Shown here one piece after another: positions 100 to 50,967 of a stretch of 64,000 bases of DNA. The notes under the pieces were generated by a model. That model saw nothing but the letters and a program-made list of their open reading frames with translations, was not told where the DNA came from and ran no database searches. The position numbers and the translations under genes are program-made. Within the stretch, counting starts at the first letter, position 1; each line of letters starts with the position of its first letter. Source of the stretch: Tribonema minus (taxonomy: Eukaryota; Sar; Xanthophyceae; Tribonematales; Tribonemataceae); contig JAFCMP010000534.1 in the NCBI GenBank assembly GCA_017506865.1, positions 186,001 to 250,000 on the forward strand. Direction: 5' to 3'.

Positions 100-3000
100 C
101 TTGGCTCTTTCTTCATGAACTGCGCGTACGCTGCATCCTTGTCGTCCTTCCACAGCCAGTCGTACTCGCTAAAGCTCTGCAGGTACTCGTGGACAGTGTT
201 TCGGATGCCCTGTATACAGGCGCGAACACAATCAGAAAGGTTATGGTGAACACAGCGGTGACTATCAGATGAAGGGCAACTTCAAAGGAGCTGCAATTTG
301 CCACTAATGACTCTCCATATTCTCAGCAGTGGTGCTTCCTGGAAAAAAGGTGCTTCCTGGCAACTGTCTCAGGGCTAGGACTAGCGGGCTAGAAAATACA
401 AGTGGGGTAAGCCTCACAAGCCCTGCTCGGATGCTCGTGCCAGTGCACTCAGGCGCCACAGTGGTTGTAATGTGGAGACACACCACAAATAAATTGTTGA
501 AGTTGAAGTAGCCACACGTTGCGCACTGCCACGTACCTGTATGCAGCCCGTGAGCAGCAGCGCCACGCGGACGATCTCAATGTCCTTGGTGATGCGCTCG
601 AAGAAGTTGGCGCGCGCGGGGGCGGCAGCAGCGCTCAATGCTGTCTCATCGCTCAGGGGCCAGTCCTGCACCTGCTTGAAGCACCCCAGGACGGCCTGCG
701 GGGCAGGGCAGAGATAGCAGCGCGGCGCGTTGAGATTGGCGCGTTTTCCTCCAGTTCATTGGTGCACACTTTGCATGTTATGAAGTACGTCCCGCTTTGC
801 AGTAAAAATAGTCAGTCCCATGCATGATGCCTGCGAGCAGACAATGGCAAGGGCTTGGTACAGGCGGTCCGTGAAAACTGCTCTCTGGCGTGCTGCCCGC
901 ATGTTGCACTGAGGCAGTCATGTCGTTGAGAAATGTCACATCTGAAAAGATGCACCATCAAGTGTCGTTTTATGCTTGTACAGTATGTGTGTACGCGTCA
1001 AGCCAATGCCTACCCCAATGCACCACGCCTACACAGCGTGCCAGTCGCACAACTCCTGAGGACACGGGTTGGGGGCCAGGGCTAAGGGTAGGTTGCAGTT
1101 AGGCTGGCAGGCACCACGGTGTGCCGTTCACACACATGGTGTGCCAGTCACACACATGTTGTGAGAGGGTTTCTGGCTGGTTTGAGGTTCAGCTAGACTT
1201 AGGGTTACGGCTAGTGTTTAGGGTTATGGCTGGCGCGTGCACAGTGTACCTGCGCGCGCTCTTGTTGATGTCAGGCTAGTGTGCCAGTCCTATACACACT
1301 GTGAGAGGGTTGCAGCCGGGGTTGGCGTTGGGCTAGCGTTAGGATTAGAGCTAGAGTTTAAGGCTGGCGGGTACACCGCGTACCTGCGCGCTTCTGTTGA
1401 TGGCAGGCTAGGGCTAGGGCTAGGAATAGTAACAGGCTAGGCTTAGGGCCAGGAGTTGAAGCTGGCGTGTGCACCGCGTACCTGCGCGCTTTTGTCGATT
1501 TCAGGCCAGGGTTAGGGCTAGGGTTAGTGTTAGGCGAGGGCTAGGACTAGGGTTAGCATGTGCACCGCGTACCTGTGCGCTCTTATTGATGCACTCCTGG
1601 ATCTCGTCCAGGCTGGGCATGAGGTTCACGCGCGCGGGGGGTTCCAGTTGGACGTCCACCTGACATCGCAGGGTCACAAACGCACAGACAGAGTGAGAGG
1701 CGTGTCGGTGGCAGTGTGCGCGGCCGCAGTGCTCAAAGTTCAAGTATGAGTTAAGTGGGGGACGCTCCACCTGAGGGTAAGTATGACCTGTTTGTCTCAA
1801 GAACAGTGAAGGCAGTGGCGTCCGGCATGAAATACCACTCAGAAAGTGCACCACTAGGGATACTGCAATACTTCAAGGAGGGGTGACGCTATCTCCTGGA
1901 AGTGTACCTGCAGTTGCGCTTGCTGAACCAGACACCATGGACGCTACAGTCTGCATCTGCAGGCTCACTGCTGAGCTACCACTGCTGCCGCCCAGACATG
2001 CTGCACTTGAGGCAATTTGTTGGTGACAAGTGCACGTCAGTAGCCATTCATCGCATGGTGCAGTACGATGTTGCCCCAGGGTTAGCGTGAGAGACTCAAA
2101 GTTCAATTCTTGTCAGGTGGCAGTTCAACTGACACAGAAACTTACCTCGAAGAACGGTCGCTGCAGGCCCTTGGGCCCGCCCGCCGCGTTGCGGCTCTGT
2201 ATGCGGTTCTTGAGGGCGTTCATGGAGTTCTTGGCGCAGTGCAGCAGCGCCTGGTACATGAAGTGGTTGTAGTGCCGCTTGAGCTTATGCACCTCCTGCG
2301 CGCACAAGGACACGGTCACAATTGCGCAGCGCACAGAGGAACATTTTAGTGGGTGATATTGCAAATTGTATCGTGCGAAGAAAAGGGGCCTGAGTGCAGC
2401 AAAAGATGCGTTGCGGTATTCAATCGAGGGATAAATGCATTGTGTGCTGCTGATGCACCTCCTGTGCGGGCCAGCGCACACAATTTGCGCAGCACGCACG
2501 GGCAGACACAGTTGAGTCGTGCCGTCCAGCTGACCTAACCCTAACCCTAACCCTAACCCTAAGACGTGCTCGCGATAGGCGCGGTGCACCGCAAGTGCGG
2601 GAGTTAGGCAGCGCCGCAACCGCACTGTAGCCTAGGAGCTTGCCAGGATTGCGAGCACACGTACTTCAATAGCGTGCAGCGCAACTCACAGTGTCACGCA
2701 GCAGCTGTGCTCGAGCGGCGATGGTGCGCGCTTCGCAAGTGAAAGGAGGGGTGTAGAATGAGCGTTGGCTTTAGCCTTTGGGTTACGGCCAGGGACGTGT
2801 GCGCATGCAACCTACCTCCTCCTGCACTCTTTCCAGGTGCTCGTCCAGAGGGTATGCCTTGATGATCTTCACCAGATCCTCCACGGCGTGCATGATCTCC
2901 ACCTGCGGGCCGCAGCACGGCACTCACTGTGAATGTGAGGTAAAAGGATGGATGCTTATGCGTCTCGCGCGCCATCTCTGGTCACAGGTGGCGCGCAACA

Positions 3001-5316
3001 GCAAGCAGTTGAAAGCTGATAGCAAATTTGCATCCTGACGGTATTCGCAAATCAGGTCATAATCTGGCTAAGGCTGTAGGCTGGTCATGCATACATAAGG
3101 TCAACGATCCGCGGCTCAAAATGTACTAAGCACTGTTGAACAGAAAAACTTCAACAATGGAGCGTCGCCCAGAACATGACTAATTGCACCAGAGGCATGC
3201 TCGTCAACACGCCATCACAAGAGACCCCCCCGCCCCCCCAACGGTACAGTCACGGTCTTCCCCTGCAGCAGCTTGCAGCGGCTGAGTATGTGCATCACGC
3301 TGGTGTAACACGACTGAGGTAAGCAGATGAAGTCAGGGCACCACAAGACACCACCCCCCCCCCTATCGGCCACTCACATTCTTCCCCTGCAAGACACACA
3401 CCCCCTTGCGGACACTCACGTTCTTCCCCTGCAGCAGCTTGCTGCGGCTGAGAATGTGCGCGTGCTGCAGGTCCACAAACTCCTGCACCGTGAAGCCGCG
3501 ATCCGTGGGCAGCTCCACCAGCAGCGTGCGGCTCACGATCTTCAAGTTCTTCTCGACGCGGTTCTCGACAATGTCGTTGATGTTGCCCACGAGCTCCTCC
3601 AGCTTCTGCAGGCCCGTGTGAACCTGCGCCTTGTACGCGTCGATGTTCATGGACGTCCACGTGAGAGTCACCATGCCCGGGCGCAGCTTGTACTCCATGT
3701 CGTTGAAGTGCGGGCGCAGGACCATGGCGGTCACGGGAATCACCTGAGCGAGGGGGGGGGATTTGGAGGGTGTCTGATTCAGCTCGTGAGCTGTAGGAAT
3801 CTGCGCTGCCCTCTGTTTGTGCTTACTGCGTATACAGTGAATTGCAGATGTTGACTGTTGTGTGTGCACAAGACATGACGCGTTCAGGCACTTCCAGGCC
3901 ATTTACAAACCAGCAGCCAGTGCACCTTGTGATCTGCAAAGCGAATGTCTACACCAGCCAGTGCCATCACATGTACCACCGGGGGATGGTGGAAAGACTG
4001 AGCCTTAGCCGAATAAACTCTCAGGTCTGGTAAGCTGACATGCTAGAACTGCTGTCACAGTGCCAATGATGCATGTTTGAGTTGAAGTTGAAGTTTGGTT
4101 CGGCGACTCACCTTCATGACGACATGGTCATACTTGGTGAGAGCCCAGTGGAGGTCATTGTAGTACGCCTTGAACTTCTCCTCCTGCAACGAACGTGAAT
4201 GCAAGCACAAGCAGCAGCAGCGCGCTTCAGTCTCAAAGCACATGGTGGTGTTTATCCCTAGACATGGCCGCAGATGCCACTCCCCACTGCACATGCGCAC
4301 CCTCTTGCTCATACACGTACCCAGTTCATCGCACTCAAATGCAAGATCAGATCAGTTTCGACCGATCCAGCTGTTGCACTTTTGCTGATGCATGTGCCCA
4401 CTTCAGGGGGTTAGGAAGTAGGGCTAGCCTAGGGTTAGCCTACGGGGTTAGCCGAATCATGCATGCCTTACCCACTCTGCACGCCACGCACCTGGAACAG
4501 CGCAATCTTGGCCGACGCACTTTTGCTCGTACTTGTGGCCAGTTCAGGGTTAGGATTAGGGTCAACCTAGGGTTAGCCCAGGGTTAGCCGCATCACGCAT
4601 ACCAACCTACTCAGCACACCACCGCGCACCTGGAACAGCGCAATCTTGGCCGACTCGGGGATCTCCAGCCCCATCCTGTCGAGGCAGCGCGCCTCGCGTA
4701 TGAGCTGCAGGATCTCCTGGTCGAGGTTGACGTACAGCTTGCCGTCGTCGGGGTGGCGTATGATGAGCGTCGCCTGCAGGCCCGTCTTGGCCTGGTCGAT
4801 GGACTGCACCCACGCCTGGTACCAGAGATACTCGAAGGCGACGAGCGTGCGCGCGACCTTGTTGTACATCTTGATGATGCGCTTGGCGTCCTGCAAGGCG
4901 GGCAGGGTAGGGAAAGGGTGCTAGGGTTAGGGTCACGTTACGAATGCAGCTCATAATGAGTATCGCTGTGAGCCTGCGGCGATCAGATATGCAATGACTG
5001 AACGGACGTCGGGTGGCAGAGGTATTCGATGCCGATGAGCATGCGCGCGATCTTGTTCTGCAAACATATTGATGATGCAGTTGGCGTCCTGCAAGGCGGG
5101 CAGCAAGGCACCTAGGTTAGGACTAAGGCGCTAGGGTTCGGGCTAGGGCCATGTTGTGGGTGTGGCTTGCGGTGAGCATTGCTGCAGTGAAGTGGACTAG
5201 GGCTGGGACGAGGACCATGTTACGGCATCGAATCAGGGTTAGGGTTAGCGGTACTGGGTGCCGTATGTACCTCATGAGAATATTGCGCCGCTCATGCCTG
5301 GTGGTGTTTGAAATAG

Positions 5317-5348
<32 letters not shown>

Positions 5349-8300
5349 CAATACACACACACACACACACACGAGCGCGCATGAAAGCTGGCTGTTCACT
5401 TCAATGCTGCGTTACAGCTGGAGCCGCCCTCAGGTGATGACGTCAGGTGATGAGCGTGGAGTGCGGTGATGCTAGGGTAAAGGCCTAGGCAAGGCGCGGC
5501 TACACAATTGTCCTCACAAACCTAGTCCAGCACTGCTGCAGCTCCACGCACCTTGCCAGCGAGCACATTCTGGTTGCTCTCGAAGTGCTTCATGGGCTCC
5601 TCGATGCGCTTCAGCAGGTGTCGGCTCCAGGTGATGTTGCCCGCGACGGGCGGCAGGTTGCGCGGCAGCGGCGGGTCGTGCTTCTGCTTCTCGTACAGCT
5701 GCTGCACCTGTTCCAGCTCTATGCCGTAGTTCTGAGGGGGCAAATGAGTAGCAAGAACAACACGCAAAGACGAGATATGTGAGCAGGAGCCCGAAGCCAA
5801 CCACCTCTATCACTGATACACAGCTGCAGACACCAATCAGCATCACCAGCTTTTCACAAACTCTGTGCAGGACAATGCCGGCCAATCACTGGCGGTGTGC
5901 CATTGTTCTTCAGTGCCACATGCACATCACAGAGAATGATTCATATCTTCCATTGAGCGTTTCTGGCGTTGCAAGCAACCCGCACAATGGCGTTGAAAGC
6001 AACCCACACAATGCGGAGGCTCTCCACCCCTGCATAATTCGCAATTTCAATGCATACAGAGGAGCGTCACCAGCACACACCTGGAAGATGATGTTGAGCT
6101 TGGAGTCGAGGTCGCTCTTGAGGCTCTCGCGCTGCAGGATGCCCTGGAAGCGCCGCAGCAGGTGCAGCGAGTGCTCTATTGACGTGATGTTCTCGAACGA
6201 CTGGTTGATGAACTGCTGGAGGCGACTCTCCAGATCGCTGATCTTCACGTTGAACTCCACGTAGTCTCTGTCGAAGCGGTTGTTGTGGAAGGCGAGGAGG
6301 TCGTGGCGCTTGCCGCGCAGGTCACGGACTATCGCCTGGAAGTGCGCTATTAGCGGCTCCATGCCCTCGAGCCGGTTCTCGCTGAGGCTCGTGAACTGGT
6401 CGATCGTGCTGAACATGTCGATGAGCTTGATGACGCGGCGGCAGAACAGGTCAAACTTGCCAAAGACCTGCGGGGAGGGGGGGAGGGGGGGGCAACAGCA
6501 GGCCAATGTCAGGCGCTGCGAATTGATTGGGCGCAGTATCACTTCCTGAGTGAGCACTGCGCACCGAGTGCAGTGCATTCATTGACTGCGCGCTGCGCAC
6601 TTGCTGAGTTCACGTTGAACCTGCCACACCATGGAGGCTGCGCATTGTTGACTGAGCAATGGGCATTAGCTGAGCATGTGCAGTTGCTGAACTGAGCGCT
6701 GCGCTATGCATCAACTGAGCATCATCCGCGAAGCGCTGCAGCTGAGCACTGTGCAATCGCTGACTGAGCGCTGTGCCTTCATGAGCGCTGTCCTGGACGC
6801 TGCGCACTGGCTGAGCACTGCGGTCCATTCACTGACTGAGCGCTGCACATCCACTCAGCAGTGCTCAGCCACTGACCTCCATCTCGTTGAAGTCAAACTG
6901 CTTGCCCTTGGGCGCCTCCCCGAGCTTGGCCTTGGTCAGGCGGTACTGCTCCTGGTAGGCCTCGTTGAGCTTGAGGCAGCTCTCCAACCGCCGAACCAAC
7001 TCCTCGGGGTCCTTGTCCCACAGCGCGTCCACGCTGTCGCCCCCCAGCACGCAGCTCTGTAGGGGGAAATCAGATGTAGAGCAGGCATTGAAATCAGTGC
7101 CCAATGTGGTTCCGTGTGCTTCAATGCAAGGCTGGACCCCACGCTGCAACCTGGCAGTGCCAGGTTCTGCGCTTGAGCCACTCTGCACTGCAGCACGCGC
7201 AGGGCACGCAGACCTTGCATACACACAAAGCACAAAACTTTCATGGCGCAGCACGCGACCCCCACCTTGCAGTTGGCGATCATCTGGTTGGTGATCTTGA
7301 CAAAGAGCCCGGTCATGCGCTCGCTCGTGTTGTAGTAGCGCGCGATTGTGTGGATCATCTTGATGGAGTTGAGGAGCGCGGGGAGCGTGTCCACGATCGT
7401 CGCGGGCGCCCCGCCGTACAGCGGCTCGATGAAGCGCTCGAGCGTGAACAGGTACTTCACGTTGTCCTTGGCCTCGTTTGCGGCCTCGGTGATGTCGACG
7501 TCCGTCTGCTTCCAGCGCCGCAGCAGCGCTCCGACGCGCGCGCGCACGGGCTCCGCCGCGCTGCGCGTCACCGCCGACAGCAGCCCCACCACCGCCTTGC
7601 AGTCGCGCCGCGTCAGCTGCTCCGTGATGCTCGTGAGGCGCTGCATGCGCGCGCGCCAGTACTCGAGCTCGCCGCGCGGGCCCACGTCCGCGCCGCCGTC
7701 CGCCGCCGCCGCCGCCGCCGCCGCCTGCGCGCAACGCCGAGTGATTGGCTGTGAGACAATGTGGGCAGGCGTTACTTTCTACAGTAACAAACTACAGGGT
7801 TGTTGGCGCTGCATGCAGCGCTCAAGCTTGCCGCGCTGGCCGATGTGCGCGCTGCCGTCCGCCGCCGCCGCCGCCGCCGCCGCCTGCGCGCAATGGTGCG
7901 CCAAGGCACTGCTTGTCAGACGACCTCGCCACAAACGCTGGCACGGTGGTCGGTGTTTAACAGTCAATATGGACACGGGGTGAGAGGCGAGGTGCACTGC
8001 GCGCGCAGCGCTGGAGCTGACTGCGCGCCTGCCAACATCTGCGCCGCACTTATTTGGCTTGCTCACTGTGCGAGCAACGACTCGAAACCGGCATGGAGCC
8101 TTGAAGACAGCATCGCGCACTTCTGTTGCTGAAGTGCTTGCTCTCTACGACAACGCGTCCGCCGCGCGCGCGCCACCCGCCTGCGGCCCGTTGAGGTACG
8201 CCTCGTTTTTGGCTCGCGTCACTGCGCGAGCAGTGCAACAAAGCGTGCGATGGGGGTGCGCAGGTCAATCCTGTCATTGCCGGCTTCAAGTGTGCCGGCT

Positions 8301-10512
8301 CACTCCCCACTCTCTACCGCAACGCGTCCGCTGCACGCAAACAATGCGCGGCGTCGCTCGCTCGCCTGCGGCCCATTCAGACCACCGCGCGAGCACCACC
8401 TGAAAGCGCGCCATCAGGGCGCGCAGTTCAATCCTGTCATCGCAAACAACTGCGGCAGCGCTCACTCGCCTGAGGGCCCTTGAGGTACGCCTCTATCTGC
8501 TCGCACCATCGCGCGAGCAGCACCTCGAGCATGACATGGGAGTTCACAGTTCAACTCTGCCAAGTCACTGCGGCAGCGCTCACCTGGGGGCCGTTGAGGT
8601 ACGCCTCGATCTGCTCGCACCACTGCGCGAGCAGCGCCTCGAAGCGCGGCACGAGCTCCGGCGACGCGTTGACGCGCTGCGTGAAGGTGCGCACGTCACC
8701 CGCGTCCGCGCTCGCCGCGATGGCGGGGTCCAGCGGCAGCAGCTCCAGGCCGCCCGCCAGGGACTTGACGCCCTCGCGCAGCGCGTGCGCGAAGCGCTCC
8801 GTCTCGCCCATGAACTCGGCGCGCTGCGCGTCGTCGGCGCGCCCCCAGCCGTCGCTGCGCAGCAGAGCGGAGCGCGCGGGGGTCGAGTTCGGTTAGCTCT
8901 GAGTACACACGTGTGTGTAAGTGTGTGTGTGTGTGTCTGCAGTTCAGTTTGTTGATGGGTGAACGCACGACGTTGACGTCGCCCTACCCCTAACCCTAAC
9001 CAGGCCGTACTTGTCTTGCCCATAAAGTTGGGCGCAATGTACGTCGTTGGTGCGGCCCTCGGCCGCCGCTGAGCGCCCAGCGAGTCGAGAGTTAGGGTTA
9101 GGGTTAGGGTTAGCGAGGCGGCAGGCGTCACGTGAGGTCAATGCTAGGCGCGCGCAGCAGTGTCTGTATGTGCAGTTGAGTTTTGGCGGTGAATGTATGC
9201 ACAACACTGTTGGCGCGGAAGCCCCCCATCTCTGTGCACGACGCTGCGCTCCACGGTGCCTGTGCGTCGTGCCAGTGCTCTGCCAGCTCGCACGCCTGTC
9301 AGTAGCTGACGTGTGTGCGTGCGTGTGTGGTCCCTACTTGCAGCACATCCCTGCAGCGCTCGTTCGCGTTGTTCAAAGCAGTAACAGTGCTCAGCTTTTT
9401 GCATATGCTCAACAGCGTCTCAGTGCTCGGTGTGTTGATAACTCTGGTTGTTGAAACAGCATCAGTGCTCAGCTTCTTGCACGTGTGCAACATCGTCTCA
9501 GTGCTCAGTGTGTTGGTTGTCCTCCCTGTCCCAGTGCTCAGCGCGCCGCGCGCCACGCCTCAGCGCAGCTCAGCCCCACGACACAACGCGCGCGCACACT
9601 CCTCACCTGGCCTGCAGCAGCGGCCCTATGAAGCGCGTGAGCGCCGCCTCAATCGCCGCCAGCGCGTTGCCGCTCATCTCCCCGTACAGCACGGCGCCGT
9701 CGTCCGCCTGCGACGTGTCCACGTTCGCGCCCTCCTTCGCCGCGCGCAGGAAGTAGCAGCACTTGTCCGTCAGCAGCTCCCCCGTGCCGTCGCTGATGAA
9801 GAGCTCGAGGACGGGCGGCGCGGCGGCGGCGGCGGAGGCGGCGGGGTCCGCCGCCGCCGCTGCTGCCGCCGCCGCCGCCGCCGCCGCCGCGCCGGGATCG
9901 CGCACTGCTTGGTAGAGGACGAAGAGTCGCCGCGCGCCGTCGCCGGAGAAGAGGGAGTTGAACTTTGCGATGGTGTCCTCCTGGGGCAGTGCAAGGGATC
10001 GGGGGGATATGTAGAGTTGAGCATTCTGATGTTGTGCACCCCTCATTGTTGCAAATGGGTAGAAAAGTGTAGACAGAGCGAACCAACGTGTGGGGCCACT
10101 TTGCCGAACAGGGCATGTGTAGTGCATACGGTGTTAAGGGAGACAGAGGTGGCAGGCTGACTATATTGTGGCAGAAACAGGTGGGCTGTGATCGTGCTTT
10201 CTGACAAAGTCGAATGATGTGATTGGCAGCGAACAAAGTATCGCCGCAGCTGTTGACAATTCGGACAACAATAGTGTACGATTCACAGCAACATCGACAT
10301 GCTATGTGCATGAGCGGCTAGCTGCCCGTACGACATGTCCTACATGTCGGCAGCCAGGCCTGCATGCAACAGCAGCAGCACCAATTGATGTTCGAGCATC
10401 AAGCGGGGCTCACCTTTCGCATGAAGGCCTGGGCCTTGCTGTCGTCTACGTTGGGACCGAAAGAATCTACTATCTTGCTCATGCACCATCTGTGCCGAGC
10501 CGTGAGAGCCAT
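100..10512 (-). CDS. Axonemal dynein heavy chain, N-terminal (tail) part, partial at left edge
   Basis: Tail region of a dynein heavy chain, the ATP-driven motor of the flagellar axoneme. I joined 15 exons in phase: 10414-10512, 9607-9980, 8584-8854, 7266-7724, 6877-7056, 6081-6467, 5552-5731, 4630-4890, 4112-4183, 3420-3743, 2816-2902, 2146-2295, 1573-1659, 537-695, 100-209, then off the window. They encode about 1,066 residues of an expected ~4,500, so the AAA motor lies outside. Dynein tail signatures seen are GELEYWRARMQRL, FGKFDLFCRRVIKLIDMF and YDWLWKDDKDAAYAQF. Start: the ATG at 10512 is the first after an in-frame stop and has A at -3 and G at +4; a second ATG is at 10482. Polyalanine runs occur in exon 2 and at the start of exon 4. 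The DHC_N1 sequence looks closest to the outer-arm gamma/DNAH5-8 class, which is a judgement from memory. Twelve of the 14 introns are phase 0. Confidence 0.93.
1228..1600 (-). repeat. Tandem copies of dynein exon 13 donor junction in the downstream intron
   Basis: The real exon end at 1573 (donor reads CAG|GTACGCGGTGCAC on the minus strand) is echoed at about 1461-1505, 1362-1408 and 1229-1275. Each copy keeps roughly 20 coding bases (I-N-K-S-A-Q-like) plus the donor and about 12 intron bases. Copies are 95-137 bp apart and separated by degenerate TTAGGG/CTAGGG stretches. Confidence 0.85.
2285..2505 (-). repeat. Copy of dynein exon 12 acceptor junction in the upstream intron
   Basis: About 2451-2505 is a diverged copy of about 2285-2340, which spans the first bases of exon 12 and its acceptor (shared core ATGCACCTCCTG then CACAATT and GCGCAGC). 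The copy sits in the intron upstream of exon 12 in transcript sense, just before a perfect telomeric tract. Confidence 0.65.
2536..2562. repeat. Interstitial telomeric repeat (CCCTAA)n
   Basis: More than four perfect CCTAAC units in the dynein intron between exons 11 and 12. Similar tracts are at 8985-9001, 9088-9113 (TTAGGG orientation), 30103-30135 and 63001-63021. Degenerate versions are at 1190-1560, 4400-4600, 4918-4935, 5130-5250, 57700-57815 and 63765-63840. Both orientations occur, and nearly all lie in introns. Confidence 0.85.
3252..3460 (-). repeat. Copies of dynein exon 10 donor junction
   Basis: The real exon 10 end is at 3420. Copies lie at about 3255-3295 (CTTCCCCTGCAGCAGCTTGC shared, then the following ~20 exon bases) and at 3371-3392 (a shorter copy that includes the ACTCAC donor complement). 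Confidence 0.7.
4486..5105 (-). repeat. Echoes of both edges of dynein exon 8
   Basis: Exon 8 is 4630-4890. Its donor side (4627-4655) is repeated at about 4490-4518 with near identity (CACCTGGAACAGCGCAATCT shared). Its acceptor side (about 4830-4908, ending CTGCAAGGCGGGCAG) is repeated at about 5022-5105 with several substitutions that break the reading frame. So both flanking introns carry a decayed copy of the nearer exon edge. Confidence 0.8.
5322..5374. repeat. (AC)n microsatellite
   Basis: About 50 bases of AC dinucleotides with one CAAT interruption, inside the dynein intron between exons 7 and 8. A shorter (GT)n tract is at 8909-8937. Confidence 0.9.
6545..6876. repeat. Degenerate CTGAGC-rich minisatellite in a dynein intron
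   Basis: The intron between exons 5 and 6 contains many imperfect units of the form TGACTGAGCGCTGCGC, running up to the donor at 6876. A related but different series based on CAGTGCTCAGC lies at about 9370-9570 in the intron between exons 2 and 3. Confidence 0.6.
7660..7895 (-). repeat. Copy of dynein exon 4 acceptor junction
   Basis: The 5' end of exon 4 (7665-7724 plus acceptor) includes a (GCC)n run coding polyalanine. About 7817-7894 is a second copy, with the same (GCC)n run and the same CCTGCGCGCAA flank, in the upstream intron. A functional AG is kept in both. Confidence 0.8.
8177..8650 (-). repeat. Three decayed copies of dynein exon 3 donor junction
   Basis: The real exon 3 end is at 8584. 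Copies lie at about 8469-8531, 8363-8410 and 8180-8245, each with the GGCCCgTTGAGGTACGCCTC-type core (reading NGPQ of the protein backwards) and a GCGCGAGCAG block. Donor GT is replaced by GC in all three copies. Confidence 0.8.
8805..9085 (-). repeat. Copy of dynein exon 3 acceptor junction
   Basis: The 5' edge of exon 3 (8805-8870) is repeated with substitutions at 9019-9082 (shared GCCCAT, then CGTCGT, CCGCTG blocks), between two telomeric tracts. The reading frame is lost in the copy. Confidence 0.7.
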
Positions 10513-12189: not shown

Positions 12190-12416
12190 ACGCATCGCAT
12201 AGAGATAATACCACGTGGAGCGCTGTGGACGGGGCGGAGCGAATGCCGCCAGTGTCATGCCCTTCAAAGCTAGATGACTGACTTCTTCGAGAACCGACAT
12301 TCTGCTTGCAAATTCTGCACCGGCTCTGCGGCCCAGGCTGCCACCTGGCCCCAACTGCTAATACAACAAGTTTGCAAAAGTAGTCTTCGAGTGCAAGCAC
12401 GGGCAAGACTTGATGG
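12190..12416 (-). pseudogene. Decayed 3' fragment of the retrotransposon polyprotein
   Basis: Read on the minus strand, this stretch gives fragments such as AEFASRMSV, ALKGMTLA and KLVVLAVG. They line up with EYASRMSV, ALKGIALA and KLATLAIG near the C terminus of the 1779-residue retroelement protein at 20975-26314. Frames are interrupted. It directly abuts the MITE at 12425. Confidence 0.55.
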
Positions 12417-12424
12417 CTAGTGAG

Positions 12425-12784: not shown

Positions 12785-14371
12785 TCAGGCTCATGATAAT
12801 GAAGCCCATGATAAAATGTCTCATAAGTCAGCTTGAAGCAAGCAACATATTGTCATGTGGGCTTTTCCGCGCCCAGACTAACAATCAGTAAAGTCACATG
12901 ATGTATGCCGCATACCCTGTAGGGATTGCTGGGTACACTGCAGTGTACACTGCACTGTGTAGTCTTAAAAGCAGGTTTGGCCAAACACGCACCTATGCAT
13001 GCGTACAAGCAACCTTCGCTGGCAGCATGATCAATCAGTCTCACCGACTAAACATGCGCCATGCCTGTTCACGCAACTAGCACAAGCAGATGGTGCTGTC
13101 ACGCATACTTCTATGATTTGCACACCTGCTGTGCACTGTGCAGACAGTGCGGACCAGGCAACGCAAAGGTCAACGGAGAGAAGACATGTACGCACACCGC
13201 AATGAGGAAAAGACATGGTTGTGGACGGACGTTGAAGCCTTTCTGCATTGGTGCGATGAAGGCGAGGCTTGCCCACGCAAGCAAATGGCGACTGGCTACT
13301 GCAGCTACCTGCAAGTGATCATGACTCTCGGCAGTTGCACACAGAGCGACGCGCCTCAGCAGCATCCACCCTGCGCCGCAAGTACCTGATTCAAGACCTA
13401 CATTTGGCGGTGCAAGGGCAGCCATTCGCCACCGCCCACTCCGCCGTTGAGAGCAGATCAATCCGGCACTCCGCAATTGTGATCCATCTGAAATGATCGA
13501 ATATCCCGTGTCCCTGTCCCTCCCACGGGCAGCCGCGCTCCCGCAGCCACTGCAGTATGTGCAGGCGTCCCGTAGCGATAGCCGATGAGCAGTTTGACTG
13601 GTCCCAGAGGCAGCCTATGTCGTGCAGCCTCTGCAGCACGTGCAGGTGGCCTCCGAGCACGGCTGGTGAGGATAGGCCTGCGATGACGGGGCAGCCGTTT
13701 GCGTGTGCCCACTGTAAAAGCTGAAGATGGCCGTTGTAGGCCGCGTAGTAGGATGTCATGCTGCTCCATGGGCAGCCGTGGTTCCGCGCGTATTGGAGGA
13801 TGCCTAGGTGGCCGCCTGCTGCGGCGCTACTGCACGTCTCCTCGTCCCAGTCGCATCCTGCGCTGCGCGCCCACTTCAGCACCTCCAGGTGCCCTCCGCG
13901 CGCCGCCGCAGCGCATGCGCTGGAATCCCAGTCGCACCCGTTAGCGTGAGCCCACTGTAGCACCTCCAGGTGCCCCCTGCGAGCTGCTGCCACGCTCGTG
14001 CTTGTATTCCAGTACAGCCCCTGGTCGCGCGCCCATTGAAGCATCTCCAGGTTGCCGCGCTGGGCTGCAACCGTGCATACGCTTACAATTTGCGCCCGGT
14101 CCGTGACAATTGCGAGCACGTACTGCACCACTGCTAGAGGACCGAACATGGCGGCGTGGTGCAGCAACCTCGAGTTTACCTTGCAACCGTTTGCAATCGC
14201 CCACTGTATGAGCGGCACTGATGCCACCATGGCTTGCGCAGCCGTTTCTGTCTGTGATTGGGCCTGCCTGAGCTGCATGGTGCTGGCGTACAGCGCGCGC
14301 CACCCCGTGCAAACTGATGCAAGCTGCAGGTAGTGTCCATGCGGCAAGAACTCGAAGACTTTGGTCCACAT
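12785..14371. repeat. Left arm of an inverted duplication carrying the ankyrin gene
   Basis: About 12785-14371 matches the reverse complement of about 18580-20010. The match covers the ankyrin coding region and also non-coding flank: 12790-12880 against 19910-20005, 12998-13110 against 19690-19810, and 13150-13215 against 19600-19670. Arms are about 1.5 kb and lie about 4.2 kb apart. Confidence 0.75.
13391..14371 (-). CDS. F-box-like/ankyrin-repeat protein
   Basis: An uninterrupted 326-residue frame. The N terminus (VFEFLPHGHYLQLASVCTGW, residues 5-24) resembles an F-box-like helix pair. About eight ankyrin-type repeats with the heterokont/giant-virus signature follow, for example RGHLEVLQWAHANGCDW and GGHLGILQYARNHGCPW. 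Such proteins usually act as substrate adaptors or protein-binding scaffolds; the partner is unknown. The ATG at 14371 is preceded by a good acceptor (CCCTCAG, two bases upstream), so a short 5' exon may exist further right. This is the intact member of three local copies; the others are at 17735-18475 and 18580-19490. Confidence 0.75.
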   Translation of the reverse strand: MWTKVFEFLPHGHYLQLASVCTGWRALYASTMQLRQAQSQTETAAQAMVASVPLIQWAIANGCKVNSRLLHHAAMFGPLAVVQYVLAIVTDRAQIVSVCTVAAQRGNLEMLQWARDQGLYWNTSTSVAAARRGHLEVLQWAHANGCDWDSSACAAAARGGHLEVLKWARSAGCDWDEETCSSAAAGGHLGILQYARNHGCPWSSMTSYYAAYNGHLQLLQWAHANGCPVIAGLSSPAVLGGHLHVLQRLHDIGCLWDQSNCSSAIATGRLHILQWLRERGCPWEGQGHGIFDHFRWITIAECRIDLLSTAEWAVANGCPCTAKCRS

Positions 14372-14788
14372 GTCTGAGGGCAGAAGCGAGAGGAGGTGTC
14401 AGAATGCTACTTGACGACGTCCAAGACAAATACTTGTGCACACAGGCGCGTCTGAGCAACGTATGCTGCGTCATTTACTTCATGCAGCAAATGAACGCTA
14501 ACAGTGAGAGCGAGGTTCGCGCCACTCAAGCTTTTGCAGCACAAATCTTACCGCGTTGCTGCTGGCTCGCTTCCGCTTTGGCATCACAAGAGGTTGCAAG
14601 AGCCAAGGCACGGGCCCTCTTCCTGGTGACCACCATCCTCTCTGCTTTGCCGAGCAGCTGCAGATGGTTTAAACACTGAAGTTTTAACTTCACTTCTTCG
14701 ATCTTCATGTTTGAAGTTATGGATCCGCTTCAGATTTTTAAATTTGGTGTGCTGCTGCGTTGACACAAAGACACTTAAGACAAACACC
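14372..14788. other. Spacer, no supported gene
   Basis: About 420 bases between the ankyrin gene and the leucine-rich-repeat gene, which diverge. It presumably holds both promoters. No clear motif is visible. Confidence 0.4.
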
Positions 14789-17790: not shown

Positions 17791-18475
17791 TGAAGCAAGT
17801 AGAGCATGCAAGCGCAAGCTGACGGTGACGCTCTTCTGAGTCTGTCCACAGGTGTCCACCGTTACACAGAGCTGCATGCCTGAGCAGCCTGCATTGCAGG
17901 TGCGCGTATCCGGACCTACTTGCGTCGCTGCACGGGCAGCCATTCGCCAGCGCCCGCTCTACCGTTGACGTTACCGTGTGGATGTGGGAATCCCCAACAG
18001 TGAACTCAGTCCACTCTAAGAATGCAAGGGTTGGCTCTCCATTCCATGAGCAGCCGTGCGCCCGCAGCCACCGCAGGACGTCTAGGCACTCGGCCTCAGC
18101 GGCCACCGCACATGCCATCGGGTTGAATGGACAGCTATGTCATGCAGCCACAGAAGAACATGCATGTGGCCTCCGCGTGCGGCGGCTGGGTAAGCGGCAT
18201 TGTGTACGGGGCAGCCGTTCGCGTGCGCCCACTGTAGAAGCTGGAGATGACCGTAGCGTGCCGCGTTGCAGCAAGTAATGGGCAGCCGTGGCTCCGCGCG
18301 TATTGAAGTATGCCCAGGTGGCCGCCTGCTGCGGCGCCGCTGCATGTCTCCTCGTTCCACTCGAATCCTGCGCTGCGCGCCCACTTCAGCACCTCCAGGT
18401 GCCCTCCGTGCGCTCCGTGCGCCGCCGCACCGCACGTGCTAGAATTTATGTCGCACCCGTTCCGTACGCAGTCAG
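17735..18475 (-). pseudogene. Broken ankyrin-repeat gene copy (C-terminal half)
   Basis: Minus-strand fragments in three frames: LKWARSAGFEWNEETC (about 18392-18300), YGHLQLLQWAHANGCP (about 18265-18215) and CLDVLRWLRAHGCSW (about 18095-18050). They align in order with the C-terminal half of the intact gene at 13391-14371, in the same orientation. At least two frameshifts separate them. It stops at the dispersed repeat at 17711-17790. Confidence 0.75.
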
Positions 18476-18579
18476 CAGTTGGTCACACTCATTGTGTGTC
18501 AGCTGCCGCAGCGTGTCCATGCGCTCGGGTAACCCGGCGGGCAGGTTTCCATTCGCGGCAGGAAGCGGGTGCAGTGGCC

Positions 18580-19490
18580 ATGTTCATTGCAGCCATGGTT
18601 GCGTCCGTGCCCCTGATACAGTGGGCGGTTGCAAATGGGTGCAAAGAGGATACAACGCTGCTGCTGCACGCTACTGCTTGCGGTCCTCTAGAAGTGGTGC
18701 AGTATCTACACGCAAACGGCGCGGACCTGACTCCAATGTGGGGCGCATGTGCGGCTGCAGCTAGGCGGGGGCATCTGGAGATTCTTCAGTGGGTGCATGC
18801 CCAGGGCTATCCCTGGAGCATATATGCAAGCGCGGCAGCGGCAGGCAGCGGGCACCTGGAGGTGCTAAAGTGGGCTCACGCCAACGGGTGCGACTTAAAT
18901 TTCAGGACATGTATTGCGGCGGCGCGTGGAGGGCACCTGGAGGTGCTGCGGTGGGCACGCAGCGCAGGATGCGACTGGTGCGAGGAGACATGCAGTGCCG
19001 CCGCACAGGGCGGCCACCTGGGCATCCTCCAATACGCGTGGAGCCATGGCTGCCCGTGGAGCCACATGACATCTCACTACGCGGCCTACTACGGCCACCT
19101 CACCTTCTACAATGGGCACACGCAAACGGCTGCCCCTTGCACCCCGACATATGCTCAGCAGCCGTGCACGGCGGCCACCTGCATGTCCTTCATTGGCTGC
19201 AGGACAAAGGCTGCGCTCTGGACCCAACGTCGTGCACGAGAGCCGCTGAGGCCGGGCGCTTGGACATACAGTACATACTACAGTGGCTGCGGGAGCACGG
19301 CTGCCCGTGGGATGGAGAAGGCGCCCTCAACCTTTTCATATGGATCACTGTCGCGCAGTGCCAGAATGACGTGCTGTCAACGGCGGAATGGGCGCTGGCG
19401 AATGGCTGCCCGTGCAGCGACGAATGTAGGTCTCATATAACGCACCTGCGGCGCGGGGTGGACGCTGCTCTGGCGCGCTGCTCTGTGTAG
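18580..19490 (+). pseudogene. Inverted ankyrin-repeat gene copy with one frameshift
   Basis: From MFIAAMVASVPLIQWAVANG (18580) the plus strand matches the intact ankyrin protein repeat by repeat. Near 19102, in GGCCACCTCACCTT, one base is missing relative to the intact copy. The rest (LLQWAHANGCPLHPD, LQWLREHGCPWDGEG) continues in another frame to a stop at about 19490. The N-terminal F-box-like part is absent. It forms the right arm of the inverted duplication. Confidence 0.8.
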
Positions 19491-20895: not shown

Positions 20896-20974
20896 CTCAA
20901 TATACTAGTAGGCCTCCACGAGATGCGGATAGGTATGTAGCTGTAGCATGTAGCACCATGGCGTAGCAGAGATC

Positions 20975-26314: not shown

Positions 26315-26530
26315 GTGGTTGTCGTTGCGACACTTTCAGACTGTCATACGACATGTAGATTCCTTACAGCTAGATGCCAATCATCTGGGCTTTTTCGCGC
26401 CCTGAGCGAGAATTAATAAAAAGTACATAATGGAAGACGTAGGGGAGGATCCCGAGATGCCATTTGGCGGCGGCGGCGTTTGAGTGGTTGTCGTTGCGAC
26501 ACTTTCAGACTGTCATACGACATGTAGGCC
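26263..26530 (+). repeat. Retroelement 3' UTR and a tandem echo of it
   Basis: After the stop at 26314 the 3' region runs to a tail AATTAATAAAAAGTACATAA near 26430. Directly behind it, 26431-26530 repeats 26262-26358 (GAAGACGTAGGGGAGGATCC through GACATGTAG), as if a very short 5'-truncated copy had inserted at the end of the element. Confidence 0.8.
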
Positions 26531-30101: not shown

Positions 30102-30133
<32 letters not shown>

Positions 30134-34759: not shown

Positions 34760-35290
34760 GCCTCTGCAGTCTATGGACAGTGTCTGAACACCATGCGTTG
34801 CTGAACACGAACATGCACGCGCGGATTCTGTTGTGCTCTTGGTCTTTGTGTATGTAGGATGACCTGGCGGCATTATTGGCTCTGATACGGATCGATTTCA
34901 GTCGCTTCCACGAGTTCGGTCCAAAGCGGCTGCAGGGCATCCTCGAGTCGATGCACCGCGAGGGCGGCCACATCCCCCATGCCAGAACTCGCTGGCAGCT
35001 GCGGGGAACGGCCTGATCATCACCAACCCGGCAACATCAGGCTTGAAGAACTCAGATCCGCGTGGTGTATCAACTCAAGGATATCCTGCAGCCGCTTTGG
35101 ATCAAACTCGTGGAAGCGACTGAAATCGATCCGTATCAATGCCAATAATGCCGCCAGGTCAACCTGCACAAAATGACCAAGAGTACATCAGATCCGCGCG
35201 TGCATGTTCGTGCTCAACAACGCATGGTGTTCACAAACTGCAGAGTCTCATTGACTGCAGAGCCACACCACAAAAGTTACAGTTGGCATA
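34760..35290. repeat. Palindromic duplication of an exon-like segment
   Basis: 34760-34975 (plus) and 35050-35290 (minus) are inverted copies about 75 bp apart. Each has an acceptor-like end (CTCTTGGTCTTTGTGTATGTAG; CTCTTGGTCATTTTGTGCAG on the minus strand) followed by an open stretch reading DLAALLALIRIDFSRFHEF, then PKRLQ.ILE. The peptide is conserved between copies, with differences such as G/D and S/L, so it was probably coding when duplicated. The family is not recognised. Confidence 0.75.
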
Positions 35291-41933: not shown

Positions 41934-42075
41934 CGCACGCCTGCCTGCCTCTGCACTTTTTTCTGTTCGAATGTTTGTTGAAGTAGAGCTTCATTCCTTG
42001 AAGTTGTGCTTGAGAAGAGTGTGAACACCTCTGCTTTGTGTTCATCCTGCTTGACCAGCGCTTTCGGACCGCAGC
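41934..42075. promoter_or_regulatory. Short divergent promoter between CLP1 and the lipase gene
   Basis: Only 142 bases separate the two ATG codons, so both promoters and 5' leaders must share or overlap this DNA, unless distal non-coding exons exist. No TATA box stands out. GTTGAAGTAG (about 41980) and TTGAAGTTG (about 41999) are copies of a GTTGAA-type motif that recurs elsewhere. Confidence 0.6.
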
Positions 42076-45000: not shown

Positions 45001-47386
45001 CGTGCAGAGGTGCCCCACTGACTATAGCACACGTGTATACTTCAAGTTCGTCATAGTGTTACTGTAGCAGCAGGTACATAATGGCAGCAGCATTCCTATC
45101 AGCCTGCTAGTACGACGCGGCACGCTGCCGCCCGCCGTGTGCCTTTGCACGCTCAATTGTAGTGTGTTCAGTGCGACGCTTTGCTGTTGAGCCCGCAGCT
45201 ACAACCCCCCTCGCACGATCACTTTCCCCCGATGCTTGAAGTTACAAACTCCTCATCATCACTTCTGACACGCGCCCCTCTCCCCCCCCCCATCTCACCC
45301 CCCCCCGCCCCCTCGCCCCCCCCATCGCGCTGCGCCTCCGCAGTTCCCCATGGCGCTGGAGGACTCGCGGCGCTTTGAGCGCCTCGCGTTCGTGGACGAG
45401 GACTCGACGGACACGCAGTGCGCGGTGTGGCGTGACGCGGCGCGGCGGCGCGTCCTCATCGCGTTCCGCGGCACCTCGCACTGGCGCGACGTCCTCACGG
45501 ACGCGTCCATCATCCAGGAGCCCCTCGGCGACGCGCTCGCGCCCCTCGACGAGGTCATGGAGCGCTGGGAGGCGGCGCGCCTGCGCGAGCGCCGCCACGC
45601 CGCCATGGCGCTGCTCGACGACGCGCGCGGCGCGCTCGCCGCGGCGCTGCCGGAGGGCGCCAGCGGCGGCGACGGCGGCAGTTTTGGCGGCGGTTTCGCC
45701 CTGCCCGGGAGGACGGGCCTCACGGACATTGTGAATCGGACGAACGCGGCGCTGAGCAAGGGGAACCTGAGCGATGTGGTGGGGGGGGTGGCGGGGGCGG
45801 TGGGCGGGGGGCTGCCGGACATAGGGGAGATGGCCGCGGGGGCCATGGGCGCGGTGAACTTGACGCAGCTCGCGGAGGGTGCGCTGTCGAGCGTGGAGAA
45901 GCTGCGCGTCGGTGAGCGCTGCTGCCGCTCCGCGCCTTGCCACAGCTGTACCTATGTACCTTTACGGTTGTCGTCACTGTTAGCTGTGGTTGCAACAGCT
46001 CTGCCTATGTACCACAATGGTTCTGTTTATTGTTAGCTGTGCAGTTTGCTTGTGTGCTGGCTGCAGTCAGTGTCGGCCTGGCAGCAGGAAATGTTAGCAA
46101 TCAACACTTGTCCCAGAGGATTGCAGATTGTTGGGAGCTTACAGAAGGGCGTCGGCAATATCAGAGCGGCTGTGGATCAGCAGGAGTTAATGCTCCAAAG
46201 TATGTGGTACACCAGGCTTCAACTTATAAAGCAAGCTCTTGCGCACCATATTCGCAGGCCGGTCAAAGTTTTAAAAGTTGAGCGCTGTCACTGAGCTTGT
46301 TAGCACAAGCAAATGGCACTTTTGGGTCAAGGTTCGTGAATTTGACAGCAAATTTCATACTTCTTTATTGAAGTAGTCCATATGTAACATATTACGCAGC
46401 ACATGGTGGCACATGATGCTAAAGGTTTATGGGTGGCACAAGCCTGCTCTGCAGGAGTCTTCATTTTTGTGTGCAGCATTCTGGTTGCACGAGTTTTAAT
46501 GTGTGCAGCATTCTGGTTGCACAAGTTATTTAATTATGCATTTGCGGGCAGCCTATTTCCATGACTCATTCAAAAATCTGCAGTGTTACGTGCATGGTCT
46601 TCAAAAAGAAACACGTGCTACACTATTGCCGCGTCAATGAACATTCCCTTCAAGAACTGCACAATTCATCAATTTCTCTGCCATCATACTCGCATAATTT
46701 AGTTACGGTGCCTCTCATTGTTCCCTTACATAGGAGTGCCCGCTTTCAACGCAGACGTGGATGAGGAGGTGAAAGGAGCACTACAGGCGGGGGTGAGCGT
46801 TGCCGCGCGGCCGCCGTCACTGCCATTCAACAGCCTCAAGGGCCTGCTGCAGACCCTGGGCAACTCGGTGAGTGCGCAGCGGCAGTAGGGTTTGTCTGCG
46901 TGACCGCGCCCACTTTTGGTCGGCAAGCGCGCAGCAGCGCTGTGTGGGCTGACGCGCCATGCAGCCCGAAGGCGCCTCAGACAACTTTTAGGCGCTGACA
47001 ACACGATAGTTGCTTACTTTGAAAGATCGCATCAGCAGCAATGGCGCGCTTGCTGCAGCATGCCTTCTGCGGTGTGCAGTCTTTGGGTTGAAGTTGAAGT
47101 TCAGGTTGTGTGGGGCACATCTCCGGTGTTGTGTGGGGCACATCTCCGGTGCACAATGCCTCATACCCCCCTTTGTGACCATGTTGTAGGATTGGCAACC
47201 ATGTGCCCCAGCATGCATTGTGCTCCCGTGCCACACCACCCTTCCGCCTGCAGAGCGCTGCTGCAACTTCAACCGTGCACGCCCCCCCCCCCCCCCCCCA
47301 CGCGCACCCCCACGCGCAGGTGTCCTCCCTGGCCAACAGCACCACCGCGCTGACACCCTTCCACCTGTAGAGCGCCAAAAGCTGAG

Positions 47387-47428
<42 letters not shown>

Positions 47429-50400
47429 AGGTGTCCTCCCTGGCCAACAGCACCGCCGCGCTCGTGTCCTCGCGGCGCGAGCCGTCCTCGGAGCCCCTCG
47501 CCCCCCAGGACGTCAACGACATCGCTCAGCGCGTGACCACCTTCGGCACGGCGGTCGGCCAGGGCACAAAGGTCGTGCAGGAGGCGGCGTCGGCCGCAGG
47601 AGACTACCTCGGTCAGCGCTTGGAGGGGCTCAAGGGGGCGAACCTCACGCTCAATGTGTCGGTCACGAATATGACGCAGGTGGACTGGAGCGTGGGGGTG
47701 CAGGGGGGGAAGCCGGGGGCGGAGGTGCCGGACCTGCGCGAGCTCGTGCGGCTGCCGGAGGTCAAGGCGGTGCTGGCGGAGGTGGAGAAGGTGCGCGCGC
47801 GCGCTGAGCGATGATACCATGGTTTGAGCAATACAGTAGGCACTACATATTGTACGAGCTGTGTACGGCATAGCAACCAAACACGTCACCGACCTCTGTG
47901 CACACATATAGGTGAAGTTTTGTCAAGCGAATGTACACAGTTCCTGTCAACACTTGTGCTATTATATGATGCATGCCCATGCCTAATGCAGTCACATCCA
48001 AGTATCTGTGCTCACAGGCTGTTTCAAGCAGCTGCCTGTGGCCCTTGGTCACTTCATGCAGGCAAAGCATGTCCATCACGTTCTGGCAACGGCTACCTGG
48101 CAGCGCAGGCTCTCTCAAAGCACCGTATTATTTGCTCTCTGCGCAGGTTCGCCAAGCTTGGAACGACGTGGCAGTGGCCCTGCCGGAGCCCTTACCGCCG
48201 CTGCCCAACATCACCGACATGGCGTCAAAGGCGTTACTTCAACCCGCGGAGCAGGCTGCAGCGGTGCGTCAACTTCAAGGGGCGCTCCGGGGCATCCTGG
48301 ACTTGAACCAGACGACCGACGGGCCGATGGTTCACTCGGGGTTCAGGCAGGCGTACACCGCCGTGCGCGCGTCCATCATGGATGTGCTCTCGGAGGCCAT
48401 GGGAGGAGGTGAGCGATGCTGCGCTGCGATAGCCTGTAACGGAAAACGGGTGCTGCTACTTATGGTTTGGTGCGGTTGCAGGCGGAGGGTGGTGGAACAA
48501 ATGCATTCTTAACATCACTATAGATGCGGCAGTGCCCCCTTCGCGCGTGCGTTGCGCCAGATGTTGACTCACACACGTCGAAGCTTCGTTATGCATCAGG
48601 TCAACGCTCATCGCGCCTCATGGCACTTATGCCATGCCGTGCAGACCGATGATAAGCCGTATTGTCATGGCGCAGCGCCTTCCGTCTGATGTTCCGCCCA
48701 AGCATTGCAACTTGATGTTCAGTCTCCTAGTGATTGAAGTACGTGAAGGTCGTGATGCATGTGTTTAACGCTCACCGCGTCTCATGACCCTTGTGCCGTG
48801 CCGCTGCAGACCAGTGATGGACTGTGTCGCCATTGGCGCAGCGCCTTCCGTTTGATGCACGAAGGCACTGCAACCTGATGTTAAAGTCTCACACTATTTG
48901 AACTACATCAAGCTCGTGATGCATGTGGCCAGCGCTCTCCGCGTCTGATGGTGCTTGTGCCATGCAGCTGCAAACCAATGATGGACCTGCAAACCAATGA
49001 TGGGCCTCGTCCTCATGGCGCAGCGCCTTCCGTTTCATGCATGAAGGCACTGCAGCTTGGTGTTGAAGTCTCTCACTACTTGAAGCACGTTCAGCTCTTG
49101 ATGCATCAGGTCAGCGCGCTCACTGCGTCTCATCGTGTCTGTGCCATGCCGCTGCAGAGGAAGCCGACGTGGGGGACTGGCACGTGTACTGCACTGGTCA
49201 CTCACTGGGGGGTGCGCTGGCAACGCTGGCAACGCTGGACATAGCCAGAGGCGGGATCCGAGGCCAGCAGCCCAAGGCGGTCACGGTGGGTGCCTGGCCG
49301 AGCATTACTGCCAGTTGAACAGCGCGCCACCAACTCTGATGCAATCTGAGATGCGTGTGGTCATTTGCATGGCGGCACATTGGGCCAGAGAAAGTTTTTA
49401 AGTTTGCAGTGCTTCTGTGGTGACCTGACAGATGGCGGCGGTGCGGGCCTGCGTGAAGGCCTGGCAGACATCCCTTGTCATACACGGGCATCGGCGAACG
49501 TGCAGGTCTTCTGTCTTGCTTGAGGCCCCCCTCATTCCCAGTGCATTCACACTATTGAACTTGAAGTAGCAGTCTAATGGTGACCAGCACGGCAGCCACC
49601 GCGTCCGTAGCATGAGGCGTAATACACTTTCACAGCCGGCATCATTCTCTCTGCGGTGGCCATACCCACAAGAACTTCAACATTGAAGTACTCCTCCCAC
49701 TATACCCTGCAGCTATCACCCGCAGAGCACCCATACACGCTCACGTCACGCTCTGCCGTCCCGGATCGCAGATGTACAACTACGGCAGCCCGCGCGTCGG
49801 CAACAAGGCCTTTGTTGAGCTGTACAACCAGCTCAACGGCGACAGCTTCCGCCTCGTCAACAACCTGGACATTGTGACGAGCCTGCCGCGCCAGGCGCTG
49901 GCGTCCATGCTGGCGGAGTACGATCACGTTGGGCGCACTGTGGTGGTGGACCATGAAGGCAAGTGCTGCAGGGGCTGTTGTATTTCATCAGGAAAGATGG
50001 TGCACGTGTTGAACGCTGCGTGATGAGAAGCGCCACAGTAGAGCTTCTGCACCAGCACAGCCAGTGAAGACCACTGTTTGGTATCCCAGGGATGTCCCTG
50101 ACAGCTACTGAATGTGCAAATATTTAAAGCACTTCCACCATGCTCAACCCAATGTGCGATAAAAGCTGTGCATTGGTCATTGATGAATGCGCAGGTATTC
50201 GTTCATCAATCAATGCATTCACTCATTCATTCGCTGCGCATCTGCGCCTTGAGCGTGCAGGCGTCCCCGGCAATGTATGGGTGGAGGGCATTGACGAAGG
50301 GGAGTGCCCCGTGCGCTTGCGCGACGCTGCGCGCGCACAGAAGGGCCTGATTGAAACGGAGATGGCGCTGCTCCAGTCCATCGTGGCGGGCGAGGCGGTG

Positions 50401-50967: not shown

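Follow-up and report, generated by a model that had tools for sequence, protein, structure and literature searches.

Copies of exon edges in the adjoining introns of dynein heavy-chain genes from an alga

In several genes of the DNA stretch analyzed here, the edge of an exon, together with its splice site, recurs within the intron next to it. This raises the question of how such copies, which we call echoes, arise and what they do to the introns that carry them. Lengthening of introns is usually attributed to transposons and to random insertions and deletions. The observations described below suggest that introns grow, in part, by local duplication of DNA at the borders of exons.

The window and its genes

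The window, i.e., the whole stretch of DNA that was analyzed, comprises 64,000 bp of nuclear DNA from a photosynthetic eukaryote (G000:C531:186001–250000). The light-harvesting family has 92 matches in the genome. For two of the light-harvesting proteins, the best-matching chains are mostly named FCP, ACP, or CAC, which we take to indicate a red-lineage alga of the chlorophyll a/c type; for one of the two proteins, the top match is a chain named only LHCI-11. In the left 10 kb of the window, the minus strand encodes a dynein heavy chain, recognized by a DHC_N1 match (Pfam), for which the closest solved structures are outer-arm dyneins. Matches to the dynein motor follow 9–12 kb past the left end of the window, with the strand unchanged. 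Exons of this gene are numbered such that exon 2 spans 9607–9980. A second gene is called a lipase on the basis of a Lipase_3 domain (49616–50020), and a third is called PPR, a name given in the initial annotation of the window; across 32265–32951, no Pfam family was found at an E value of 0.01.

The genome consists of 158 Mb in 554 contigs. To form a larger set, we took 200 kb of it, the greater part of which surrounds four dynein heavy-chain genes located on three contigs. All exon models are predictions made from the DNA sequence. The gene finder combined a codon Markov model with splice-site matrices and a bonus for homology to paralogues, and its intron penalty was set high because a light penalty led to hundreds of tiny false exons. 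Twenty predicted mini-exons (1–90 bp) were removed from the dynein models by hand: 14 were a repeat of the neighboring edge, five were 1–10 bp long, and one was 24 bp long. The four dynein genes then have 58, 32, 28, and 34 exons; homology to paralogues is seen for 27, 21, 13, and 23 of these, respectively. Their introns of at least 150 bp, 146 in number, make up the dynein intron set.

Echoes of exon edges in the window

The initial annotation had listed 13 exon edges in the dynein, PPR, and lipase genes as being repeated in the neighboring intron; where the side of the exon was unspecified, we counted the side bearing the copy. We aligned 29 exon edges of these genes to their own adjoining introns, using probes of up to 70 exon and 10 intron bases and, as a null, 200 shuffles of each intron in two-base blocks; the PPR exon 2 acceptor and the lipase donors were left out. 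For 12 of the 13 named edges, the adjacent intron contained an edge-reaching copy unmatched by any shuffle, and the coordinates originally assigned to the echoes were correct. The claim failed for lipase exon 7. Here, an array of approximately 3.5 copies of 164 bp (48581–49157, plus strand) ends at the exon 7 acceptor and includes one exon base (score 22, P = 0.025), and it was rejected as an exon-edge echo. Fifteen of the 16 unnamed edges were at chance (P ≥ 0.125), the remaining one being a marginal match of 15 bp at the dynein exon 13 acceptor (P = 0.015). The strong echoes were recovered independently by self-BLAST and repeat finding.

In the dynein gene (all features on the minus strand), the edges passing the test were both edges of exon 3, the acceptor of exon 4, both edges of exon 8, the donor of exon 10, the acceptor of exon 12, and the donor of exon 13. 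Exon 3, as predicted by the gene model (8584–8854, with DHC_N1 in adjacent exons), is the source of a donor echo at 8456–8528 that covers 59 exon bases at 86% identity (0/200 shuffles), and of a second one at 8181–8243 (82%) in which GC replaces GT. Its acceptor echo at 9013–9074 is weak (74% over 62 bp; 0/200). The acceptor echo of exon 4 (7821–7893; source 7662–7734) is 90% identical and contains a GCG run. Exon 8 (4630–4890 in the gene model) has echoes on both sides, namely, an acceptor echo at 5017–5098 that covers 68 exon bases at 82% identity in the shuffle test and, at 4376–4516, a tandem copy of a 138-bp unit of the donor side (source 4517–4654) made up of 25 exon and 113 intron bases. 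The donor echo of exon 10 (3246–3293) covers 40 exon bases at 92% identity. The acceptor echo of exon 12 (2449–2468; 0/200) is short, with 13 exon bases in 20 bp, and together with the acceptor echo of exon 3, it is weak among the twelve. The exon 13 donor junction forms an array (1229–1590) of four copies, including the real one, with spacings of 134, 98, and 91 bp.

On the minus strand of the PPR gene, the donors of exons 2 and 5 and the acceptor of exon 3 passed the test. Exon 2, a coding prediction at 32510–32841, has a donor echo at 32324–32391 (91%) and more copies at 32178–32211 and 32045–32105, and the acceptor of exon 3 is echoed at 31202–31282 (77%), with another copy at 31367–31438. 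The donor echo of exon 5 (28103–28156) is a 100% identical 54-bp copy, with 45 exon and nine intron bases, of a source at 29465–29518, 1362 bp away. In the lipase gene, the passing edge is the acceptor of exon 5, with a 97% identical echo at 47317–47351 (plus strand; source starting at 47431).

Echoes in four dynein genes and in other genes

When echoes within 600 bp were counted in the four dynein genes, they were found for 98 of 292 edges, including 51 of 146 donors and 47 of 146 acceptors. These numbers bear out two earlier statements, namely that local duplication across splice junctions is recurrent and that donor and acceptor sides are both affected. Approximately nine of the 98 edges, as judged by eye, hinge on the removal of mini-exons. 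Per gene, the counts were 28/114, 28/60, 29/52 (C113a), and 13/66 (C514). Edges well covered by homology to paralogues were like the remainder (39/112 versus 59/180 with an echo). A stricter low-complexity cut-off, which hides echoes in GC-rich exons, gave 81/261 edges; this cut-off also applies to the count of 74 introns that follows and to the counts of inverted copies and internal-only repeats given later. Depending on the method, 64 to 74 of the 146 introns carry direct copies of an edge.

Controls were largely negative. Comparison of edges with the wrong intron gave no positives in 595 cases, and exon-interior 90-mers compared with flanking introns gave two in 266. Overlapping 90-mers taken from within introns were positive in 24 of 535 cases for echo-free introns and in 323 of 1126 for echo-bearing ones. 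One local shuffle per gene yielded no repeats at threshold, whereas the unshuffled genes had 68, 79, 116, and 27.

Among non-dynein genes, 4/50 edges had an echo (two in PPR, one in a light-harvesting gene in L025, and one in the lipase). This count excludes the copy of PPR exon 5, which at 1.36 kb is beyond the 600-bp range. Four 10-kb stretches (L027, L028, L030, and L031) gave 0/30. Some edges of L027 and L028 are common to both counts, which a Fisher test pooled as 4/80, and these edge sets include some gene ends rather than splice junctions. Edge echoes are strong in the dynein genes and weaker in the remaining sampled genes, which agrees with the original remark that not all introns have them. 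When the light-harvesting paralogues L024 and L025 were compared, only short matches were seen past the exon. Further dynein genes may carry echoes, as hinted by Pfam profiles that match one exon end twice on C522 (profile positions 129–157, approximately 130 bp apart) and on C508 (15–51 within 1–65, approximately 200 bp apart).

Anatomy of the copies

The direct repeats are approximately 30–140 bp long and include the splice site and some intron. Their exon part has a median length of 48 bp, measures 30–70 bp in 87 of 108 cases, and has an overall range of approximately 20–105 bp. The nearest echo lies at a mean distance of 150 bp (SD 34; 66 cases with a distance of at most 230 bp), and for echoes with an identity of at least 0.86, the nearest copy is 81–212 bp away in 53 of 58 cases. 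Echoes are closer to their own edge, at a median distance of 0.23 of the intron length. Ungapped identity amounts to 0.8–0.9 across the exon part and the splice motif and drops at position +5 of donors (0.58) and −4 of acceptors (0.69). This drop is expected if the copy on the exon must keep a working site, although part of it is due simply to constraint on the real motif. In the 146 introns, none of the edge copies was inverted; the one inverted pair is internal to an intron.

The copies of an array within one intron often have almost identical breakpoints in the exon. Their spacers are often visibly homologous, meaning that whole units were reduplicated, and a structure made solely by inserting unrelated filler was rejected on this ground. 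When spacers of single echoes were matched to the sequence after the copy, 26/45 scored above the null maximum of 28 and 18/45 reached at least 36; 19/45 were at background. Some events may carry inserted sequence, and pure tandem duplication alone is likewise not proven. Two echo spacers were searched genome-wide, and each was unique, the sole match being the query. This result is consistent with the earlier observation, here followed up for these two spacers, that no transposon ends accompany the copies. A transposon with long target-site duplications is disfavored, given that sizes vary and both spacers are unique. Introners and other transposon-derived introns are recognized by near-identical copies at many loci, and neither of the two spacers had such copies.

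A young array is found on the minus strand of G000:C531 (95565–96896 of the joined reverse strand). It consists of seven echoes at a spacing of 161 bp, each with 45 bp of the start of one dynein exon, and most neighbors are 95–100% identical.

Sequence divergence of the copies

At junctions with at least two echoes, all echoes agree against the exon at 4/458, 1/462, and 25/457 sites of codon positions 1, 2, and 3, respectively. At these sites, it is the exon that changed, synonymously, and the echoes retain the other base. Changes seen in a single echo are distributed far more evenly (68, 75, and 102 for the three positions; p = 2 × 10−5 for the difference from the exon). Identity between echoes is 0.854, 0.858, and 0.779 at the three positions. 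The third-position excess, present both among the singletons and between echoes, counts against pure neutrality, under which the pattern would be flat; copying of the exon at different times, or partial gene conversion, would give it.

Insertions or deletions occur in 27 of 113 echoes and in-frame stops in 10 of 113, versus 9.3 in a neutral simulation. The GT is retained in 47 of 60 donor echoes (neutral, 49.3), and the AG is retained in 50 of 58 acceptor echoes (neutral, 47.2). Splice-site scores differed from that of the real site by no more than 1 unit in 39/60 donor echoes (neutral, 55%) and 37/58 acceptor echoes (neutral, 58%), and no difference in strength was seen between real splice sites with and without echoes (p = 0.93 and 0.45). 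The echoes thus look like relics that are neither preserved nor eliminated as splice sites. Purifying selection on them as coding or splice sequence is unsupported, stops and losses of GT or AG being near neutral rates. Tandem duplication of exons, yielding alternative exons, was also rejected: the copies are edges with a median of 48 bp, their stops are as frequent as under neutrality, and singleton changes are spread over the three codon positions.

Decay of the copies with distance, as described in the initial annotation, was not seen in the larger set, in which similarity is higher for the nearest echo than for the farthest one at 14 of 27 edges with multiple echoes; the order of echoes shows no trend with age (14 versus 13). 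Spacer identity between two echoes is 0.55–0.64, versus 0.82–0.87 for the exon part and 0.44 for unrelated sequence, a comparison that is biased by finding echoes via their exon part. The divergence of spacers relative to the exon part exceeds that of a single neutral clock. Best hits with at least 95% identity make up 6 of 98, a count taken from identity bins that total 99 because of rounding, and this scarcity of very young copies hints at a past burst.

Exon edges versus intron interiors

The initial annotation had proposed to weigh junction-spanning against intron-internal repeats genome-wide. Within the 146 dynein introns, its expectation held: direct repeats formed 103 junction clusters (52 anchored at the donor, 50 at the acceptor, and one at both) versus 10 internal clusters. 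Random duplications of the observed size would have 2.1–5.9 times as much opportunity to fall inside an intron as on an edge. For known events, the part that lies in the intron reaches the detection threshold in 22/71 cases; with this correction for detectability, uniform duplication predicts approximately 67 or more internal clusters, and the 10 seen have a Poisson P of approximately 5 × 10−18 (2 × 10−8 if 40 are expected instead). The excess of edges over intron interiors is about 7-fold or more, assuming that 22/71 is a fair measure of detectability. Introns with internal-only repeats number 2/146 with filtering and 7/146 without (score 44). Echo-bearing exon edges are also more GC-rich (0.667 versus 0.633; p = 0.004 for donors and 0.0006 for acceptors), although the effect is small.

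Echoes and intron length

Introns with echoes have a median length of 815 bp (n = 64), compared with 505 bp (n = 82) for those without (p = 2 × 10−9), an association that is partly circular, since longer introns offer more room for echoes. In the four dynein genes, the stretches from the junction to the farthest echo add up to 20,323 of 103,862 intron bp, about a fifth. Both results lend support to the original proposal that duplication at the edge enlarges introns. If the phenomenon is general, exon borders would be mutation hotspots and echoes would serve as fossils of ancestral synonymous states; in that case, one would have to explain how so many rival splice sites that are nearly perfect can be tolerated.

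Origin of the echoes

We lean toward the explanation that echoes are tandem duplications made at staggered breaks and tolerated when the splice site of the exon stays intact, with a preference for edges in addition. The initial event would be a small local tandem duplication whose source segment lies across an exon edge. Fill-in and rejoining of two staggered single-strand breaks, in some cases with the addition of sequence, would leave a direct repeat of approximately 30–140 bp that typically holds about 48 exon bases along with the splice site and a portion of the intron. These copies would abut or have a spacer between them, with most nearest copies 80–210 bp away. An event would survive if the outer copy remained joined to the exon and its splice site were complete; the exon would then stay as it was, and the inner copy would become part of the intron. 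Inner copies would then mutate under little or no constraint, sometimes reduplicate into arrays, and fade, and the net effect would be growth of the intron. As small tandem duplication predicts, the copies are nearby and direct (74/146 introns), with no edge copy in inverted orientation. The narrow exon part counts against random breakpoints, which would spread it. Random breaks also predict mostly intron-internal repeats, contrary to the data, and an edge preference must therefore be added. Why events prefer exon edges over intron interiors is unaccounted for by the staggered-break model. Tentatively, exon–intron borders might be hotspots of a process of DNA breakage or nicking that depends on transcription, chromatin, or base composition, with introns growing mainly from the edge inward and leaving datable fossils of earlier exon ends.

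Some alternatives address the edge preference itself. Duplications might be uniform, with edge copies recognizable for longer merely because selection has frozen the copy on the exon. The exon is indeed conserved, and at an equal threshold, so few intron parts of known events are detectable that internal events must be undercounted; yet the deficit of internal clusters persists after correction, even with 40 expected, and internal-only repeats are rare with or without filtering, which makes this explanation rather unlikely. Alternatively, cutting or nicking of DNA specifically around exon–intron borders could be coupled to transcription or splicing, for example, at the edge of an RNA–DNA hybrid over a GC-rich exon, or fragments of pre-mRNA with a splice site could be copied back. 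Such coupling would fit the edge preference, the narrow 48-base exon part, the higher GC content of echo-bearing edges, and the strong differences between genes, such as C113a and C514. We nevertheless regard it as unlikely: the GC effect is small, and echoes that have lost their GT seem to have been copied again (window positions 8170–8530), which is unexpected if the process depends on splicing.

Other alternatives concern the copies after their formation. Selection for functional decoy or reserve splice sites, the role suggested in the initial annotation, appears improbable. Many echoes still resemble working sites, and those with scores at most 1 unit from that of the real site are slightly more numerous than expected, but neutral simulation already accounts for more than half of donors and acceptors, GT and AG are retained at neutral rates, real sites with and without echoes show no difference in strength, and stops and indels have accumulated. 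There is a slight chance that gene conversion from the exon refreshes the exon-like part, so that echoes are older than they appear. This would agree with the higher identity of exon parts than of spacers when echoes are compared with each other, with the third-position excess in echo–echo differences, and with the absent trend between order and age; the 30 sites at which all echoes keep a base that differs from the exon speak against complete homogenization. An assembly artifact can practically be dismissed, as most copies differ by approximately 5–20% and the codon-position pattern in the exon lineage needs real evolution. Moreover, redundant contig ends agree at 99.95% (L026 on C489 versus L027 on C70) and 99.94% (L028 on C296 versus L029 on C490); this high identity made the overlaps uninformative in a haplotype comparison for polymorphic echoes.

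Relation to known duplications and intron gains

Several known systems are close to our preferred reading, staggered-break duplication plus an edge preference. Gao and Lynch, as cited in PMC4974935 and PMC2809761, reportedly described, in 2009, internal gene duplications that possibly span exon–intron borders. In Daphnia, 55 of 90 neointrons contain internal repeats, which are read as scars of staggered breaks, and repeated events are said to yield a passive trend to longer introns (PMC4202315). The algal introns resemble these in their direct repeats and in their proposed lengthening. The exon-matching repeats described for Daphnia, however, are 4–12 bp long and occur in recently gained introns, at the end opposite to the matching exon (PMC4202315), whereas the algal copies take up approximately 30–140 bp of one exon edge plus splice site, on its own side, in long introns and in 64–74 of 146 cases. 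With exon parts of approximately 20–105 bp near their own edge, the echoes were rejected as Daphnia-type staggered-break neointrons.

In mouse cells, small tandem duplications arise by fill-in of the staggered ends of breaks made by Cas9, with overhangs down to 43 bp (PMC8355091). Like the echoes, these duplications are small, direct, and local, and fill-in offers a plausible biochemical route. The preference for exon edges sets the alga apart, no such preference being described for the Cas9 duplications in the available text of that study (PMC8355091). In Rogers-type intron gain, a new intron is formed from an exonic AGGT segment by tandem duplication (PMC4974935). Both cases involve tandem duplication within genes, the cost of which is hidden by splicing. 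In the Rogers-type model, the upstream exon end recurs at the acceptor (PMC4974935), whereas in the alga, existing introns grow. None of 123 echoes placed the exon edge, whether the upstream exon end at the acceptor or the downstream exon start at the donor, within 6 bp of the opposite splice site; hence, the echoes are not Rogers-type new introns. Models of intron gain are also treated in PMC2809761 and PMC3443670, and repeats of 4–30 bp at intron borders have been reported (PMC11782384). Among the matches listed in a literature search, which covered few subscription journals, no title or beginning of an abstract described exon-edge copies at such frequency. Known repair routes thus explain the echoes in part, and the edge preference stands outside them.

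Other features of the window

Degenerate telomere-like runs of CCCTAA or TTAGGG occur at 2534–2562, approximately 9090–9112, 30102–30134, and 57703–57816, and such runs are also found inside spacers between echoes. On the sense strand, CTAAC resembles what we assume to be a branch-point motif. A large inverted repeat at 34870–35180 has, by eye, arms of roughly 80 bp around GGCGGCATTATTGGC. Two ankyrin-repeat genes (13394–14398, minus strand, and 18307–19437, plus strand) contain 81-bp in-frame repeats, and one of them has an F-box. Finally, a 96-bp direct duplication outside predicted exons (26263–26358 and 26432–26527) is 98% identical, with its copies 169 bp apart, a spacing that resembles that of exon-edge echoes. 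It is among the youngest local duplications of the window and overlaps the end of an open frame of 1786 aa (20954–26314) that the gene finder did not call coding.
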